This document shows, one piece after another, positions 45,738 to 55,343 of a DNA stretch of 64,000 nt. Below the pieces are notes generated by a model. That model saw only the letters and a list, made by a program, of their open reading frames with translations, was not told the DNA's origin and ran no database searches. Numbering within the stretch: position 1 is the stretch's first letter; each line of letters starts with the position of its first letter. The stretch spans positions 2,996,219-3,060,218 of the forward strand of contig JNVV01000001.1 in NCBI GenBank assembly GCA_000733355.1. Reading direction: 5' to 3'. The translations under genes were made by a program, and so were the position numbers. The stretch comes from Falciphora oryzae. Lineage: Eukaryota > Ascomycota > Sordariomycetes > Magnaporthales > Magnaporthaceae.

Positions 45738-47505
45738 ATGTCCGCTTCTGCTCGCGACGCGATCCTCATCGCCGAGGCCTTCAAAGCTCTCGGCAAGGCC
45801 GTCAAGCGAAAAGCCTACGGTAAGACCTGCTGAGCCGACCGGCCACGTCCCACGCCTCCAACCGCCAGCCGCCGTCACGACCCAGCGCCGCAGTCTAACA
45901 TTTCCCTCCTCCGATTTTCGCAGAGTCGGACTCGGACGACTACATCGAACAGCCCACCAACCGCGGGGGCAAGCTAAAAAAACGAGCGCGCTTCGTCCGC
46001 CGAGGCCAGGTCGGGCCGAACGGGCCTCCGCTGTTCAGAGAGGCAAGTTGCACCGCGCAATCGCGCCGACGCTCGCAGACACGATGCCACAGGCGCCCGT
46101 CACTAACGTCAATCATGCAGGCTGTTGAGCATGCTGGCTACCAGCGCGCCGTCATAAGCCGCAACCCGACCCTCGTCGACGAAGAAGGCTACGAGATCGA
46201 CAGCGATGACGACGAGGAGCGCGTCGTCGAGGCGCAAGCCGAGGCTGACGAGATCAATCCATACGCAAGCATCCGGCTCGAGGGTATGTTTCCTATCGCT
46301 GAATCCAACATGCTCGCCGCGAATTGAAGACCTGCTCACACGACCTTTCTGCCCTACTAGACATCCTCGCCCCTCTGACGTCCTCGGCGGATCTCGCAAA
46401 CCATGCTACTCTCTCTCGGCCCTTCCTCTCGACCGCCCTGTCCGAGCTCTCCATCCAAGGCCGGAACCTGATGCACAAGGAGAACAAGGCCCTCTGGAAT
46501 GTGCGGCCGCTCTTGACGCGCCTCTGCGGGGACCACACGTGGGCATCATGCAATATGATGCTGGGGCCTAACGACGCCGACCTCTTTGACATCCATACCG
46601 GCGGTGCACCGCAGCACCGTCGCCCTCAGAATCGCAAGCAAGCGCCCGCCACAGAAGCCCATAAGCCAGCGTCGCCGTCGATGTCCAACGGCGCGAATTC
46701 AAAGTCCAGGCCGGTCGGCCACACGGACCAAAAGGCTGGAGTGGATGAAACGGAAGAGAAACAAGAAGATCCCGACGTCACAATGGAGGACATCGACCCC
46801 TTGGATGGATCTGCCACAACCGGTCCTGGGGCCGTCAACGGTGATAAGCTCGCAGAAGACGCGCCCAAGAAAGATAATAAAGTCGGGGATTACGAGAAAG
46901 CAGCCTCGAGTAAAAAAGACAAGCACGCCGCAACAAGTGCGACCAATGGCGAGGTGTCAGCAACAGCCCTCGCCGCAGCAAAGCGTCCATTGGAACCCGG
47001 CGAGAAGAATTCGAGCATTAATGGAGACGCGGCTACGGTCAACGGCCTGGCGGCCGCGAATAAGGGAGTCCAACAACCCGGCGCTGCGAACGCGCCTCAT
47101 GAAGTCAACGGTACCGGGGCGACACTAGCGGGCGACCAAGAAGCTATACACCCGTACTTCCTAGCCCCTTCATCAGCGTACCCAGACCGAGATGCCGGTC
47201 TGCCGCAGCAGGATGCAGAAGACGTGCGCCGGCTGCTGCAGCTCTACGTCCAGAAGCAAGAGGAGGTCTGCCGCGGCACCAAAGAGCTGTACGAGGGCCT
47301 GTTACGGGCGGACCGGCTGCGACAGATGGTGCTCAAGTGGTCCAGGGCCGAGGCGCACTGCGGCGCGAATCGAGACATGTCGGACGGCGAGGACTGGTAC
47401 GACAAGGATGAGTGGGGCCTCACCGAGGACCTTAAGAAGGGACAGGATGAGGAGGAGGAAGAAACCACCAAGGACCAGCCCAAGAAGACTAGGAATAGGA
47501 GGTGA
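45738..47505 (+). CDS. rxt2: Rpd3L histone deacetylase subunit RXT2
   Basis: Subunit of the large Rpd3 deacetylase complex. Exons 45738-45819, 45924-46042, 46121-46283, 46361-47505 give 502 aa. The conserved RXT2 N-terminal domain spans the first ~180 residues: SDSDDYIEQPTNRGGKLKKR, RNPTLVDEEGYEIDSDDDEE, then LAPLTSSADLANHATLSRPF and MHKENKALWNVRPLLTRLCGD. A long low-complexity Ala/Lys/Glu linker leads to a C-terminal helical segment (VRRLLQLYVQKQEEVCRGTKELYEGLLRADRLRQMVLKW). Intron 2 (46043-46120) uses a GC donor (GAG|GCAAGT) with branch site ACTAAC; no GT donor keeps frame. The final tail is acidic then basic. Confidence 0.88.
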
Positions 47506-47753: not shown

Positions 47754-49706
47754 CTAGCCCAGGCGAACCTTGCTCCACATCCTCAAGCACTCCTGCAAAT
47801 CCATGGACAGGGTGCCCTCGAGTGCCGAGGACGCATCGCTTATCAAGGCCACCACGAGCGTGGCCAGGGCAAATGTGGCCTTGTCCTCCTCGAGCGCCTG
47901 GAAGTCCGACTTGCGCATCCCGCCATTGTCGGCCCATGCCATCCACAGGTCGAGCAGGCGGCAGAGGCGCGCGGCGAAAGCGCCCTCGAGCACCATGCGG
48001 TGCAGCAACATCCCAACGGCCTGCCTCAAGTCGGCCCGCTCATCCACGACGAACAGTCCCTCCTCACCGTCGTCCTTGCCGTCCTCCTCTTCTCCTTCCA
48101 GCGCCACCCGCGCCCTCTCCTTGAGCCACGCCAGGTTCCGCGCCGCCACCCTCGAGGCGTCCCAGCGCGGGCTCTGCAGCGCCTCGGACAGCCTCGCCTC
48201 GCGACGCGCGGCCTGGTCGCGCAGCCTGTCGCGCATGTCCTGCAGGCGCTGCTCCGCCTCGCGCCGGGCCCGGTCCCGGGCTGCGGCCTCCCTCTGCGCG
48301 GGCGCCATGCGCGCCTCGGCCGCCAGGGCCTCGCGCTGCTCGCGGCCCCTCCGGGTGAAGGCCTCGAGCTCCTCCATGCGCCTGCGGGACTCGTCCCCGT
48401 CGCCCGTGCTGGACCACTCGGGCGTCTCGTCCTCGGCCACGACGCCGAGCAGCACGAGCACGCCGCAGGGCACGGTGGGGCGGCGCGCGAAGCGGAGCAG
48501 GGCGTCGGGGATGCGGTAGCTCCATAGGACCGTTTGGCTCGTCGTGCCGAAAGCGGTGGCTGCGCTGGCGAACCACGTGCCGCCGGTCCTGCCGCTGCTG
48601 CTTCCGACCCCGTATATCCCACCCGTGGTGCCGCCGCCGCCGACGATGCGCAGGTGGTCCACATACAAACTGTCGAGCTGAACCGAGCTCTGGAGCCGGT
48701 CCTCGAGCGCCAGGGCCGTTACGAGCCCCTCGGCCGAGATCTGGCAGGTGATGGGCCGTGGGCCAGCATCGCCTCGGCCCTCCTGTCGGGTTGAGTCCAC
48801 CGATGATATCCCGGTCTCTTTGCGCCGTAGGCTGGCTGCTCGTGGGTCCTTCTCGGGAAGCACTGGCTTGCTGCTGCTGCTATCATCTCCGTCACTAGCG
48901 CCCCGGCCTTCTTGCGCTCCCTTGACCCCAACTTCGTCATCATCGTCTCCTTGCACCGTTTTCTTTCCCCGTAACCGTCTCGTCCACGGCGGCAGCTCGA
49001 CCCAGTAAGGCGGCAGGTCCGAGTAGTCGCGTGTAGTCCACTCGTCGGCCCACGACACGGCCAGCGACAGGTGTCCGTCCGAGTCGGTCAGCGGCGCGAT
49101 GCTCAGCGCCCTGTGCGCCCCGTCCGGGCTGCGCATCAGCACGCACCCGACGGGCGTCCACAGCCCCGTCGAGCGGAGCAGCCTCCAGCCGTGCGGGTCG
49201 GGGACGGCGCCCAGGTCCAGCAGGTAGCAGACCAGGTCGTCGAACGCGACGTCGGCCTGCGGCTGGCGCAGCTGGTCGGCGTACTCGACGCGCTGCGTCT
49301 TGAGCCCGACGGCGTTGGTGCGCCAGTTGAAGGCCGTCCAGGACCCGCCGGGGATGGCGCTGGGCCCGCCGCGCGCGAGCCGCCAGTACTGCGCCCGGTG
49401 CTGGAACCGGTCCCACGGCGCCACGGCGTACCGCGGCAGCTCGATCTCGATGACGCGGTTCACCACGTCGCTGCGCGTCAGCGCCGTCAGCCGCGCGTGC
49501 CGCAGGATCCGCTTGATGCGCGAGACCGCCACCAGCGTCGCCACGGTGTTGTACAGAATCGGCAGCACGCCCAGGACGGCGAGGGGGACGCCGATGTAGG
49601 CTGCAGTGAGCGTGTTGTTAGCTTTATAGTGACAATGGTCATCGAAGATCGGGTGAGGGTACTGACTGATGATGTCCGTCGCTGTGTGAGTGTTGTCATC
49701 CGACAT
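47754..49706 (-). CDS. Uncharacterised membrane-anchored protein
   Basis: Single exon; I start at the ATG at 49706 (MSDDNTHT), giving 650 aa. An in-frame ATG at 49751 would add 15 residues. One transmembrane segment lies near residue 35-60 (YIGVPLAVLGVLPILYNTVATLVAV), followed by an Arg-rich stretch. The folded N-terminal part contains DRFQHRAQYWRLARGG, WRLLRSTGLWTPVGCVLMR and SDLPPYWVELPPW. An acidic linker follows, then a beta-type region (YVDHLRIVGGGG), a long Glu/Arg/Ala coiled coil (RRRMEELEAFTRRGREQREA onward) and a C-terminal helical block. The pattern suggests a conserved fungal protein, but I do not recognise a named family. Confidence 0.75.
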   Translation of the reverse strand: MSDDNTHTATDIISQYPHPIFDDHCHYKANNTLTAAYIGVPLAVLGVLPILYNTVATLVAVSRIKRILRHARLTALTRSDVVNRVIEIELPRYAVAPWDRFQHRAQYWRLARGGPSAIPGGSWTAFNWRTNAVGLKTQRVEYADQLRQPQADVAFDDLVCYLLDLGAVPDPHGWRLLRSTGLWTPVGCVLMRSPDGAHRALSIAPLTDSDGHLSLAVSWADEWTTRDYSDLPPYWVELPPWTRRLRGKKTVQGDDDDEVGVKGAQEGRGASDGDDSSSSKPVLPEKDPRAASLRRKETGISSVDSTRQEGRGDAGPRPITCQISAEGLVTALALEDRLQSSVQLDSLYVDHLRIVGGGGTTGGIYGVGSSSGRTGGTWFASAATAFGTTSQTVLWSYRIPDALLRFARRPTVPCGVLVLLGVVAEDETPEWSSTGDGDESRRRMEELEAFTRRGREQREALAAEARMAPAQREAAARDRARREAEQRLQDMRDRLRDQAARREARLSEALQSPRWDASRVAARNLAWLKERARVALEGEEEDGKDDGEEGLFVVDERADLRQAVGMLLHRMVLEGAFAARLCRLLDLWMAWADNGGMRKSDFQALEEDKATFALATLVVALISDASSALEGTLSMDLQECLRMWSKVRLG

Positions 49707-49751
49707 CTTGTCTTTCATCCACCAGCGACGTCCTGGCTGAGGTCGATACAA

Positions 49752-50330
49752 TGGCTACGTGATGAGAAGAAGCCCTTGGCAGGAACTATGCCCAAATAAA
49801 TAAAAACGAGGGGTGCCAGGTTGCGACAATCGCAGGGGAAAGGGGCAGATCGAACTTCAGCCGCACTTTAGCGACCTGCCAGGGCCCGGCCATGTTGCAT
49901 CCCCTGCATTGGCGGCGCTTTTGCAATACTAGCCGATCATGCCTAACATAGAATTTCACGACTAGGAAAATTTATGGGTGAGATGTGGAGCACGCTCTCA
50001 GAGTTCAGGCGGACAGTTTAGTGCGATGAGATTGTCCCAAACGGTCGACTCTGGAAATGTCAATTAGGTGTGGGAGCTGAAATGCATCGCCACCATGACA
50101 CGAATTGTCAGCACAAACAGAAGATCGCCCAGGATCATGTAATGAGTACCTATGCATAGCAACAGATCACACGGAATTGAAACAAATGCATCGCGAGGCA
50201 AGCGAATAGGATGTGAACAGCAAGTATATTGATAGTATCTATCTTGTCCCCTTCCGATGGGATACCCAACGCAGGAAGAATCATAGGCCAGTGGATAATA
50301 CCACAGCCAGTGAATCTCTCACCGCATCAC
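49752..50330. other. AT-richer spacer below snoRNA host gene
   Basis: Downstream side of the snoRNA host transcript. A further minus-strand donor (GTGAGT from 50334) opens into it. I searched for a seventh box C/D RNA here and found only weak boxes (a GTGATCT-like C near 50,172 and a CTGA near 50,108) without a convincing rRNA guide. Confidence 0.4.
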
Positions 50331-50491
50331 TCACCTAGACCGGTGCCTGCGGGTGTCTACGTCCGTTCATGGCAATTATTGGCTGCGAGCCAAGCTACCC
50401 AACAAATGTTGTCCTAATGCTAATTTCGACTGTTAGCTTGGGTTCCCCAACCGGATTCTCCATAAGTGAACAGACAAAGGTTGCGAGGTGT

Positions 50492-50577
50492 TGGATCAGA
50501 TATTTGCCTTGTCAAGGGCAGTCTCATCAAAGCATATGCTATGTAGACCGTCGTGATAAAATTTAAATCATCATATA
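50492..50577 (-). ncRNA. snR73: Box C/D snoRNA, snR73/U35-like
   Basis: Box C ATGATGA (to 50574) and box D CTGA (50496-50499), with an internal TGATGA C' box. The guide is the complement of 50544-50556, where the plus strand equals 13 nt of 25S rRNA (TAGACCGTCGTGA) in the peptidyl-transferase region. Counting five nucleotides from a degenerate D' box places the target at yeast C2959, the site modified by snR73 (human U35). Confidence 0.88.
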
Positions 50578-50776
50578 AGGAGGATGTTTGTGTTGGGGCA
50601 AGTGACGCGAAGTGAAGCAACTGGCTAGACTTACCCAGATGGTCAGGGTCGGGATACACCGAGGATCAAATCTGGCACCGTGGCCAAGTCTACAAAGCAC
50701 TTGGGACATCTGCATGGATCAGGTCAGCCAACTGTAACATCACAACCGAGTGGAAACGAGTGTAATGATAGATCCA

Positions 50777-50860
50777 AAGATCAGAAATGGACAGTCTCAT
50801 CTTTGCGGTTAAGCTCGGACATATGCTTGTCTTAATTTGTTGAGTCGAATCATCATGATG
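50777..50860 (-). ncRNA. snR74: Box C/D snoRNA, snR74-like
   Basis: Box C ATGATGA (50850-50856) and box D CTGA (50781-50784). The plus strand at 50820-50832 equals 13 nt near the 5' end of 18S rRNA (CATATGCTTGTCT). With a D' box CCGA, the fifth nucleotide upstream pairs with yeast 18S A28, the snR74 target. Confidence 0.9.
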
Positions 50861-51068
50861 GATAGATGGGGTGGTCAAGGGAGTTGGAGAGAACGCAGCC
50901 GAAGCACAAAACGGCAAGCGAAAGAAAGATGGGTACTAACCAGAAGATCACACATCAGTTGCAAAGCAAAGCTGCATGCATCGATTACAAGAATTAGGAC
51001 TGTTCTGATGACACATGTTAGCTTATCGCCCGACAAGGTGGGAAGCCTCGAGATGTGACAGTGAATAT

Positions 51069-51157
51069 GAATATCAGGTATGCATGAATGGTAGTTAGGT
51101 TATGTTGTCTGCATCGGTGGACCCGAATAAGACTCGTCATCTAGAAATCATCAGGGA
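51069..51157 (-). ncRNA. snR75: Box C/D snoRNA, snR75-like
   Basis: Box C TGATGA (51148-51153) and box D CTGA (51073-51076). The plus strand at 51133-51143 equals 11 nt of 25S rRNA (CTCGTCATCTA). A D' box CTTA places the target at yeast G2288, modified by snR75. Confidence 0.9.
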
Positions 51158-51324
51158 ATGTGGGTGGAGAGAAGCAGAAGGAATGGTAGGCTTACCACGA
51201 AGGTAATGCGAGATTGCCGACATCAAGACACATGAGGGCTGTCCAATAGCATTCTGAGAGGCGCGCCCAGTCAGCATCCTGGCGTTGTAGTTGCTTCAGG
51301 AAGAACAAATGTCGGGATGTGATC

Positions 51325-51414
51325 GTGTTCAGTGGACGAGGTTTTCTAGGCCTGTCGCAAAAATGGCATGTCTGCTCATGGAAAATCGGAGCCCAGTGCC
51401 GTTTCATCATGCGA
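51325..51414 (-). ncRNA. snR76: Box C/D snoRNA, snR76-like
   Basis: Box C ATGATGA (51404-51410) and box D CTGA (51329-51332). The plus strand at 51391-51399 equals 9 nt of 25S rRNA (GCCCAGTGC). With D' CCGA the fifth nucleotide pairs with the last C of GCCC, which lies 91 nt before G2288, that is C2197, the snR76 target. Confidence 0.87.
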
Positions 51415-51548
51415 ATGTCGGAGGAATCGCGGTGTGGGATTGTGTTGCATACCATCAGCGACGAGACTGGTGGCCATCGTGATTAACTGTATCAATGGTT
51501 AGCCTCCAAGTCGCAGACCAAGACGGCAACAGTGATGAGGGGAAGAGA

Positions 51549-51637
51549 AGATTCAGAAACAGCCATTTGTTATCTTCAACGGAGTACCTCAGTCGGTAAT
51601 TCCAACTTGCCGAAGCAAAGAAAATGTTCATCAGAAA
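51549..51637 (-). ncRNA. snR77: Box C/D snoRNA, snR77-like
   Basis: Box C TGATGA (51628-51633) and box D CTGA (51553-51556). The plus strand at 51594-51604 equals 11 nt of 18S rRNA (CGGTAATTCCA). An exact D' CTGA places the target at the U of CGGU, yeast U578, modified by snR77. Confidence 0.9.
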
Positions 51638-51903
51638 GAACAGAGAAGAGAAAAAAGTAGAATCTCGACCTACCATCAACGAATGACCAAGCGAGCAAGC
51701 CGGTCTACCACGCACCCCGGCCAATGAAGCGTGTCGTCGAGACCGCCGCGCCGGGGCAGCCGTGGTCTAGCCGAAGCCGAGTGACCAGCCTAAGAAGCAG
51801 GCATGGGATCCAGGATGGACAGACACCACTGTTGGAGAAGCTGTCAGCCAATTGTTGCGTCCAAAGATGTGGTGCGCGATAGAAGAATGCCGAGAGCTCG
51901 AGA

Positions 51904-51991
51904 GCTTTCAGACTGACGTGACAAATAGCAGTTTCATTCCTTGCGGTCAAAGACTCTAGTTTGTTTGCGGTTTTGCGTGTGTCATCAGGAA
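51904..51991 (-). ncRNA. snR78: Box C/D snoRNA, snR78-like
   Basis: Box C TGATGA (51982-51987) and box D CTGA (51908-51911). The plus strand at 51952-51963 equals 12 nt of 25S rRNA (GACTCTAGTTTG). With D' TTGA the fifth nucleotide pairs with U of GACU, yeast U2421, the snR78 target. Confidence 0.9.
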
Positions 51992-52383
51992 GGAAGGGGA
52001 TCCAAGAGATTGAAAGAAAAGGGCCGTCTCGCGAACCTACCTGGTGCGCTTGTCCTGTCCCTCGCTGCGCATTTTTTCTGCTGCTGCGAGGGGTTGGAGA
52101 GGAAGAAGAAAAAATCAAGCGCAAAAAACCTTTGCGGTGGAATCGATATAGCAAATTTTAGTGGGGCAGAGATGGAGCTTGGAGCTTGGGCGCTGCATCA
52201 CGTGAGACCGCGCGAGCTTTGGCCAGGGACGCGTCTCGGCGGAGTCGGGGGTATCGGCGGACAGGGGAGGCAGCGGCTGAGCCACGGGCTGAGGACTTCG
52301 CCATCCGCGAATGCTGGAATTCCAAACTGCTCAATGTCACCAACTTTTCAACCCGTAACAAAGACAATTCAATAGTAGTCAAA

Positions 52384-53867
52384 ATGCCTGAAATCGCCGA
52401 AGGTAGGTCGTCCTTGCAGCCCTCCTCGTCGTCATCTGGCGGATCAACATGTGCATTCCACTTACACGCTCTCTCGTCTCCACAGTCGCAAGGGTCGTTC
52501 ATTTTCTTCGCCAGCATCTCGTTGGCAAGATTGTTCGGACGGCCAGTGCGCCAGAGGATGCCAGCGTGTTTGGCAAGGTCGGCACGACCGGCCCCGAGGT
52601 AGCGGCCGCCCTCAGGGGTAACAAGGTGAGTTCAGGTGACATGGAACCCCTTAGTCACAGGCTTTTAACTGACAGGCACAAAGGTCATCTCTGCGGGAAG
52701 TCAGGGCAAATACTTCTGGTGAGTGGCAGCTTCCGACCCAAGATTCGGCGAGGCATGCAAGTAATTCTAACAGACTTCCTGTTGTCAGGCTTGTCCTGGA
52801 GAAACCCCCGCATCTCGTGATGCACCTGGGGATGACAGGTACGCAGATATGTGTGGCTATCAATGGCATCATCCAGAGGCCGAGCCAACCTGACTGACAA
52901 CATGTGACCGTCGCGCCCAGGATGGGTCCATATCCGCGGCGTCAAGAGCGCCTACACCAACTACTACAAAAAGATGAAGCCCGGCGAGGAGGAGCAGTGG
53001 CCTCCAAAGTATGCCAAGCTCCAACTAGAGACAGAGGGTCCGAGCAAGGTTGAGGTCGCCTACACAGACCCTCGACGATTCGGCCGGATCCGCCTCGTCA
53101 ACTGCCCCGGGGACGAGATCCGGGAGCGCACGCCCCTGGTCGAGAACGGACCAGACCCCGTCGTGGACGCCGACATCTTCACGCGCGAGTACTTCACAGC
53201 CAAGATGCGCGCGCGCCGCGCCCCCATCAAGGCCCTTCTGCTCGACCAGGCCGTAATCAGCGGGATCGGCAACTGGGTCGGAGACGAGGTGCTCTTCCAG
53301 GCCAAGTTGCACCCGGAGCAGTACTCGAACGAGTGCAGCGAGGCCGAGGTGAAGCGACTGTACGACGCCATCTGCGATGTGTGCCGCACCGCCGTCGACA
53401 AGCTCGGCGACTCGGACGAGTTCCCGGCGCACTGGCTCTTCAACTACCGCTGGGGGAAGGGCGGCAAGCCCAGTCGGCTGCCCAACGGCGAGCCGCTCGC
53501 GTTCGTCACCGTGGGCGGCCGCACGAGCTGCTTCGCGCCCGCACTCCAGAAAAAGACAGGGGCCCTTCCCCGGGGTGCCAAGGTTGTCAAGGAGGAGAGC
53601 GAGGAGGTCGTGAAGAAGGAGGAGTCTGAAGAGAAGGAGGCGGAAGAATCAGAGAAAGAGGAGGAGCCGGCCCCGAAGAGGAGACGAGTCACGAAAGATT
53701 CCAAGGCGAAACCGGCCGCCTCGAAGGGAAGTCGGCAGTCAAGTTCGAGGCGTCCGGGAAAACAAGAGTTGAAGGAAGAATCAGGGGCAGAGGTCTTGGT
53801 AGAAGATTCTGGAAGGAGAAGATCCGGGAGACTTCGAGGCATCGCGAACGGGACGTCTGCCAACTGA
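52384..53867 (+). CDS. Formamidopyrimidine-DNA glycosylase (Fpg/MutM type)
   Basis: Bifunctional base-excision repair glycosylase/AP lyase for oxidised purines, of the plant/fungal type. Exons 52384-52402, 52486-52625, 52684-52718, 52789-52838 and 52921-53867 give 396 aa. The mature N-terminus after Met removal is PEIAEV, with catalytic Pro and Glu in place. HLGMTGWVHI, DPRRFGRIRL, LLLDQAVISGIGNWVGDEVLFQAKLHPEQ (helix-two-turn-helix) and GGRTSCFAPALQKKTG follow. The bacterial zinc finger is absent, as in plant enzymes. The last ~120 residues are a Lys/Glu-rich tail with a likely nuclear signal (PAPKRRRVTKD). Five small exons all keep phase. Confidence 0.92.
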
Positions 53868-54533: not shown

Positions 54534-55343
54534 TCACTCCTTCGCGCAGAGGAAGCCGACGGAGTAGTGATGAAGTCCCGAGTCGTCCCACGAGACAGGG
54601 ATGATGGTCAGGATGTTGGTGAAGGGGGCGCCGTCCTTGCGGAAGTTGGGCACCTCGAGCTGCAGCTCCGCGTTGCGCTCGACCGACCTGCGCATGCGTT
54701 TGACTAGGTCCTTGGGCACGTGGCGGCGCGCCGACCCCCGCTCGACGGGGCCCCTGCCGGGGGGAGCCTGCAGGAAGCGGCAGTTGCGCCCAATCACTTC
54801 CGAGGTCGAGTAGCCCGTCAGCTCCGTGAAGGGCTCCGAGGCGTAGACGATGGGCGTGTCCGGCTGCGTGAGGTCGCAGAGCACCATGGCGCACGACGCG
54901 TCGACGGGCCCGAGGTCGACTTGGGGGTTTGGTCTGGCGGTTACTCGGAACTAGTTGATACGAGGTGTTAGTTCTGTTGCTTGCTGTTTTTTGGAATGTG
55001 TGGCTGTTCCAAAGATAGCAAGCGATGATTATGTCCCTTACCAGTATGTCGAGCATGTTGAAGCCGCTTGCTGAGTATAGTCCCGGGTAGATCAGAGGAT
55101 CTTGTTGACCATAGCCTGCAGCGGCCTGGCTACCCTCAGCGGCCTTGGGTTGTCTGTTAGCCTCTGAAGCCCTCCTTCAGCCGGCCCTCGATGCCGATAC
55201 AGTCGGATGGGACAAGAGCCGAGAGTTAGAATAGGCATTTCAGATAGTAGAGCCCTTACCTGCATGGCGGCCACCTCCCACGAGTTGAGCACAGGGGGCG
55301 GGTTAGGCGCCATAGAATAACTGACGACGCTTGCGGAATACAT
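54534..55343 (-). CDS. vvd: VIVID-type LOV blue-light photoreceptor
   Basis: Small flavin-binding LOV protein that damps White Collar signalling (photoadaptation). Exons in transcript order: 55343-55260, 55143-55042, 54950-54534, giving 200 aa (Neurospora VVD 186). The N-terminal cap NSWEVAAMQ parallels NPWEVEAYQ of Neurospora, and SGFNMLDILFRVTARPNPQVDLGPVDASCA aligns without gaps. The LOV core is IVYASEPFTELTGYSTSEVIGRNCRFLQ, with the photo-adduct cysteine about residue 119, then RNAELQLEVPNFRKDGAPFTN and IPVSW. Exon 2 could alternatively begin 18 nt later at GTAGCCAG; I chose the acceptor nearer the CTAAC branch site. GATCGA-rich promoter sequence agrees with light control. Confidence 0.92.

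Follow-up and report, generated by a model that had tools for sequence, protein, structure and literature searches.

Six box C/D snoRNA genes on one strand

The 64-kb stretch of Falciphora oryzae DNA analysed here (the window) carries six box C/D snoRNAs on the minus strand between positions 50494 and 51992. Rfam matches and guide pairing together place them in the order snR78-77-76-75-74-73 (Table 1). A scan of the whole window with Rfam returned four matches at the gathering score, all of them at this locus and on the minus strand. These orthologues of the snR78 to snR73 genes thus all lie on one strand, and two of the six are assigned through a sub-threshold Rfam score combined with a guide helix. 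The sequence-only reading had described six minus-strand box C/D snoRNAs in yeast order. That description holds, with Rfam recognising four of the RNAs at its gathering score and the snR78 and snR74 types more weakly.

The two weaker members were seen in a permissive Rfam search of positions 49700–52400, which listed 13 matches. In this search the snR78 match (E 0.9, cut-off 48) and the match at 50798–50860 to SNORD27, which corresponds to snR74 in humans (E 1.4, cut-off 52), are not significant on their own; the place of snR74 is also matched weakly by GlsR14 (E 0.3) and SNORD2 (E 2.9). Since both types fall below their Rfam cut-offs, their identities depend mainly on their boxes, their position in the order and their guide pairing. 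Boxes C and D are legible near the ends of all six RNAs, both in the Rfam alignments and by eye in the sequences; snR73 and snR75 have degenerate D' boxes. For the snR75 family, the one family searched for across the organism's own assembly, a single copy was found, namely the one in the cluster.

Table 1. Coordinates of the snoRNAs, predicted introns and putative host gene in the window
Feature	Positions	Strand	Details
Putative non-coding host gene	50250..52160	-	both ends guessed; internal exons 155, 34, 58, 64 and 75 nt
snR78/72 (Neurospora CD5 type)	51906..51992	-	Rfam snR78 24.5 bits, below cut-off; 9-bp D' and 9-bp D helices
snR77 (CD24 type)	51551..51638	-	Rfam Afu_300 57.4 bits; guide for 18S U578
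snR76 (CD12 type)	51327..51414	-	Rfam Afu_513 71.4 bits; guide for 25S C2197-equivalent
snR75 (CD7 type)	51072..51156	-	Rfam snR75 68 bits; guide for 25S G2288-equivalent
snR74 (CD21 type, U27)	50775..50861	-	Rfam SNORD27 22.4 bits, below cut-off; guide for 18S A28
snR73 (CD31 type)	50494..50578	-	Rfam snR73 40.3 bits (cut-off 37); guide for 25S C2959-equivalent
Predicted intron 1 (212 nt, snR78/72)	51829..52040	-	GTAGGT ... CTGAC ... CAACAG; second 5' splice-site match 52036
Predicted intron 2 (187 nt, snR77)	51487..51673	-	GTAGGT ... CTAAC ... ATACAG; second 5' splice-site match 51715
Predicted intron 3 (199 nt, snR76)	51254..51452	-	GTATGC ... CTGAC ... TCTCAG
Predicted intron 4 (191 nt, snR75)	51005..51195	-	GTAAGC ... 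CTAAC ... CATCAG; possible second 3' end 50972
Predicted intron 5 (231 nt, snR74)	50710..50940	-	GTTAGT ... CTGAC ... ATGCAG
Predicted intron 6 (215 nt, snR73)	50420..50634	-	GTAAGT ... CTAAC ... AATTAG

Guide complementarity to ribosomal RNA

Two conserved rRNA patterns (up to three mismatches) and the 5.8S family gave no matches in the organism's own assembly (50.2 Mb in 123 contigs), and two patterns gave none in viral contigs. With no rRNA of the fungus itself turning up in the assembly, the guides were tested against rRNA from other eukaryotes. Scanning the genomes of bacteria and archaea yielded three records with eukaryotic rRNA (L002, L003 and L004). The duplex tests used L002 and L004; the roughly 590 bases of large-subunit rRNA in L003 were left out. 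The three records sit in assemblies labelled bacterial (a Gammaproteobacteria MAG, Mangrovicoccus ximenensis and a Dehalococcoidia MAG), and their eukaryotic rRNA is probably contamination.

On these foreign rRNAs, helices form at all six sites that had been named from the sequence alone, and the guides fit them as claimed. The snR77 and snR74 guides each form 13 Watson–Crick pairs, placing the fifth nucleotide on positions 578 and 28 of the L004 18S rRNA, respectively, that is on U578 and A28. Uninterrupted helices of 13 and 11 Watson–Crick pairs are formed by snR73 with the 25S C2959-equivalent and by snR75 with the G2288-equivalent. The C2197-equivalent is paired by snR76 through nine Watson–Crick pairs and one G-U, and the U2421-equivalent of L002 by the D' guide of snR78 through nine Watson–Crick pairs. 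The 25S targets in L002 lie at 2566, 2657 and 2790, and their spacing of 91 and 133 nucleotides is that of C2197, G2288 and U2421 in yeast. Composition shuffles equalled the observed number of pairs at the site in none of 2000 trials for four RNAs, in 11 of 2000 for snR76 and in 16 of 2000 for snR78. In a table of every RNA against every site, no cell outside the seven expected ones exceeds eight Watson–Crick pairs. The equivalence of the positions called C2959 and A876 is taken from the yeast sequence context. The six yeast sites and their guides agree with the table in PMC8307265.

It had further been proposed that the five-nucleotide rule lands in each case on the nucleotide methylated in yeast. 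Counted by hand from the sequences, the placements do fall on the expected nucleotides, with the proviso that those of snR73 and snR75 were made with the expected site known, as their D' boxes are degenerate.

When the whole rRNA pieces are searched, the expected helix is not in every case the single best one. Among the stretches listed for snR78, six reach nine pairs and three of these are expected (one at the U2421-equivalent of L002, two at the A876-equivalent, in L002 and in L004); for snR76, four stretches have nine pairs, one of them expected. A 12-pair match of snR75 at L002 2953 is longer than its 11-pair guide match and is perhaps due to chance. The same RNA forms 10 bp with L002 2676, near the 11-bp guide match at 2654, through a conserved stretch by box D, and this is possibly a helper pairing. 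Upstream of box D in snR76 lies the stretch AGGCCTAGAAAACC, which is common to the Rfam family Afu_513 and largely to snR76; over its length it has no match of nine Watson–Crick pairs in the rRNA pieces used here. Neurospora crassa CD24, the counterpart of snR77, has a second guide, for U5 snRNA, according to PMC2780460. A family search for U5 snRNA in the present genome gave no matches, a null result that by the search's own control does not show absence.

A fused snR78/72 RNA

The title of the sequence-only reading spoke of an snR72-78 cluster and left snR72 unaccounted for, and on this point it has to be corrected: the snR72 half is found fused to the snR78 RNA. Judged by sequence, this RNA matches the snR78/72 fusion of the Euascomycetes, and it is for this reason that seven guide functions are carried by six RNAs. 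The nine bases adjoining its box D pair with ACTGACGTG in both L002 and L004, which puts the fifth nucleotide on the 25S A876-equivalent in each; nine pairs were reached in 13 of 2000 shuffles. After eight to nine pairs, one extra nucleotide in this D guide (51908–51925, minus strand) keeps the helix from running on into CAAAT.

Searches of the organism's own assembly for a separate snR72 were made with patterns that are blind to a mismatched guide and to one standing before a degenerate D' box. Within that scope, a 12-base guide followed by box D gave no matches. A 16-base guide with up to three mismatches matched 94 times on one strand and 93 times on the other, as against 84 and 94 for the controls, which is near chance. 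Eight of these 187 matches were inspected (L005–L012): no box D follows any of them within 25 bases, and Rfam searches up to E 1 on four of the eight gave nothing. The sole match to a nine-base guide plus box D (L013) is by eye without a fitting box C and stands in coding-like surroundings; it was set aside as a chance match, and Rfam up to E 2 gave nothing there.

It is conceivable, though we think it rather unlikely, that the snR72 half of the fused RNA is decaying in this lineage, and that A876 is partly or wholly unmethylated. The extra nucleotide in this guide, taken together with the scores of the snR78 and snR74 types beneath their Rfam cut-offs, could also be read to mean that some of the six genes, chiefly these two, are decayed copies whose working versions lie elsewhere in the genome. 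Boxes C and D are nevertheless readable in every one of the RNAs, the main guide helices run to 9–13 pairs and the genome-wide search for snR75 found no copy outside the cluster, so that such a set of relics is very improbable.

Predicted introns and a putative non-coding host gene

Every one of the six RNAs is preceded, 35–79 nt upstream, by a 5' splice site of the form GT[AGT]NG[TC] and followed, 50–61 nt downstream, by a CTRAC branch site and then YAG. The predicted introns so delimited are 187–231 nt long and hold one snoRNA apiece, in line with the earlier claim of one intron per snoRNA. The limits applied at the outset (5' splice site 35–70 nt upstream, branch site 40–100 nt downstream) passed five of the six, compared with 1.2% of 20,000 random stretches of the window; the 5' splice site of snR74, at 79 nt upstream, lies outside them. 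The final limits (30–90 nt upstream, 40–70 nt downstream and a stricter branch motif), which were set after the five of six had been seen, pass all six and 0.36% of 20,000 random stretches. Introns 1, 2 and 4 have alternative splice sites, of which one was chosen by the analyst.

The same gene order exists in Saccharomyces cerevisiae as an unspliced cluster that is cut by Rnt1, and the locus could likewise give rise to an unspliced polycistron processed by RNase III, the splice signals being incidental. Signals at similar distances around all six RNAs, a configuration found in only 0.36% of the random stretches under the final limits, speak against this, as does the splicing of the cluster hosts of N. 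crassa demonstrated by RT-PCR (PMC2780460), and we regard an unspliced transcript as most unlikely.

The predicted spliced host, in turn, appears to be non-coding, as had been proposed. When the predicted exons are joined (their outer ends being guessed), the longest ORF starting with ATG is 51 aa. In the unspliced sequence an 87-aa ORF (51192–51455, minus strand), the only listed ORF of at least 80 aa in 50335–52150, crosses predicted intron 3.

Comparison with known snoRNA gene clusters

Liu et al. 2009 (PMC2780460) describe conserved snoRNA clusters I–V in N. crassa, located in introns of host genes that are likened to mammalian UHG and gas5, with alternative splicing in cluster I. RNAs for all seven of the sites considered here are tabulated there as intronic and on chromosome VI. 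From their names, their chromosome and the later papers, we infer that CD5, CD24, CD12, CD7, CD21 and CD31 constitute N. crassa cluster I, an assignment supported by the fact that a study of Candida likens the splicing of its own cluster I to that of N. crassa. The two fungi are alike in having RNAs for the same sites, and the N. crassa hosts are carriers of intronic snoRNAs with only short ORFs. CD5 is a double guide for the snR78 and snR72 sites, like the snR78/72 RNA here; its pairing at the snR72 site is given as 10/0, whereas the present RNA has 8–9 bp and then an extra nucleotide. Splicing has been tested in N. crassa and is predicted from sequence here.

On a wider scale, Luo et al. 2013 (PMC3596301) report clusters I–III in nearly all fungi analysed. 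These clusters are intronic in Euascomycetes, Basidiomycota and Rhizopus, and mostly so in certain other yeasts (PMC3596301). S. cerevisiae and its close relatives have them in a wholly unspliced form, for which de-intronization is the proposed cause (PMC3596301). In some Basidiomycota members have been lost or scattered, and all Euascomycetes surveyed have a single RNA in which snR78 is joined to snR72 (PMC3596301). The order given in that paper is conserved in the coordinates found here.

The snR78–snR72 polycistron of S. cerevisiae has the same order and main targets as the present locus, but it is unspliced, comprises seven separate RNAs and is cut by Rnt1, whereas here snR78 is fused to snR72 and the resulting six RNAs are predicted to be intronic. 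Cluster I of Candida was reportedly the subject of work by Mitrovich et al. in 2010, which the Candida study cites. That study (PMC5033589) describes a conserved cluster with intron-hosted members and non-coding exons, as here. Five cluster snoRNAs are intronic there, compared with six in predicted introns here, and in C. parapsilosis snR72 belongs to a separate transcript rather than being fused with snR78 (PMC5033589). The same source agrees that the S. cerevisiae form represents intron loss. Background on the excision of intronic snoRNAs is given in PMC12508059, in whose available text snR72 and snR78 do not occur.

The statement that order is conserved while the expression strategy differs is therefore sound but not new: it is already in print in the N. 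crassa paper of 2009 (PMC2780460) and the survey of 2013 (PMC3596301). The contrast drawn with yeast is likewise right in that the yeast cluster is intron-less; in the published comparisons it is the intronic arrangement that is widespread, and the S. cerevisiae form is put down to intron loss. The observation is correct, and the gene cluster is an ordinary one, already described across fungi.

With the RNA identities and order, the guide complementarity, the splice signals and the absence of a long ORF from the joined exons, the locus is almost certainly snoRNA gene cluster I in its Pezizomycotina (Euascomycete) form, a spliced non-coding host with intronic methylation guides. By analogy with published relatives, RNA polymerase II would transcribe a non-coding host RNA from the minus strand, divergently from a DNA-glycosylase gene. 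Its six introns would be spliced out, debranched and trimmed by exonucleases to the box C/D core, yielding one guide snoRNA per intron. The products would direct 2'-O-methylation of 25S U2421, 18S U578, 25S C2197, 25S G2288, 18S A28 and 25S C2959 (yeast numbers), and the first RNA would in addition carry a weak guide for 25S A876. The locus is one more clear-cut case of a cluster that bears witness to the loss of introns around non-coding RNAs in budding yeasts; its coordinates are usable for annotation. The sole fresh point is the possible weakening of the snR72 guide in the fused RNA.

Neighbouring genes

Divergent from the host gene lies a gene of the formamidopyrimidine-DNA glycosylase type (52384–53867, plus strand) with short introns, in which the H2TH domain scores above the cut-off and the N-terminal domain just below it. 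The two genes may share a promoter region, since the likely start codon of the glycosylase-type gene, read from the sequence at 52384, faces away from the snoRNA host. On the other side of the cluster, neither a 654-aa ORF (47754–49718, minus strand) nor a 344-aa ORF (46471–47505, plus strand) has a Pfam match at E 0.001. For an ORF with a LOV/PAS domain (54534–54887, minus strand), the nearest solved structures are VIVID of N. crassa (127–129 bits) and then ENVOY of Trichoderma (104 bits), in keeping with a Sordariomycete; VIVID presumably maps to chromosome VI of N. crassa, where the RNAs of the cluster are also listed.
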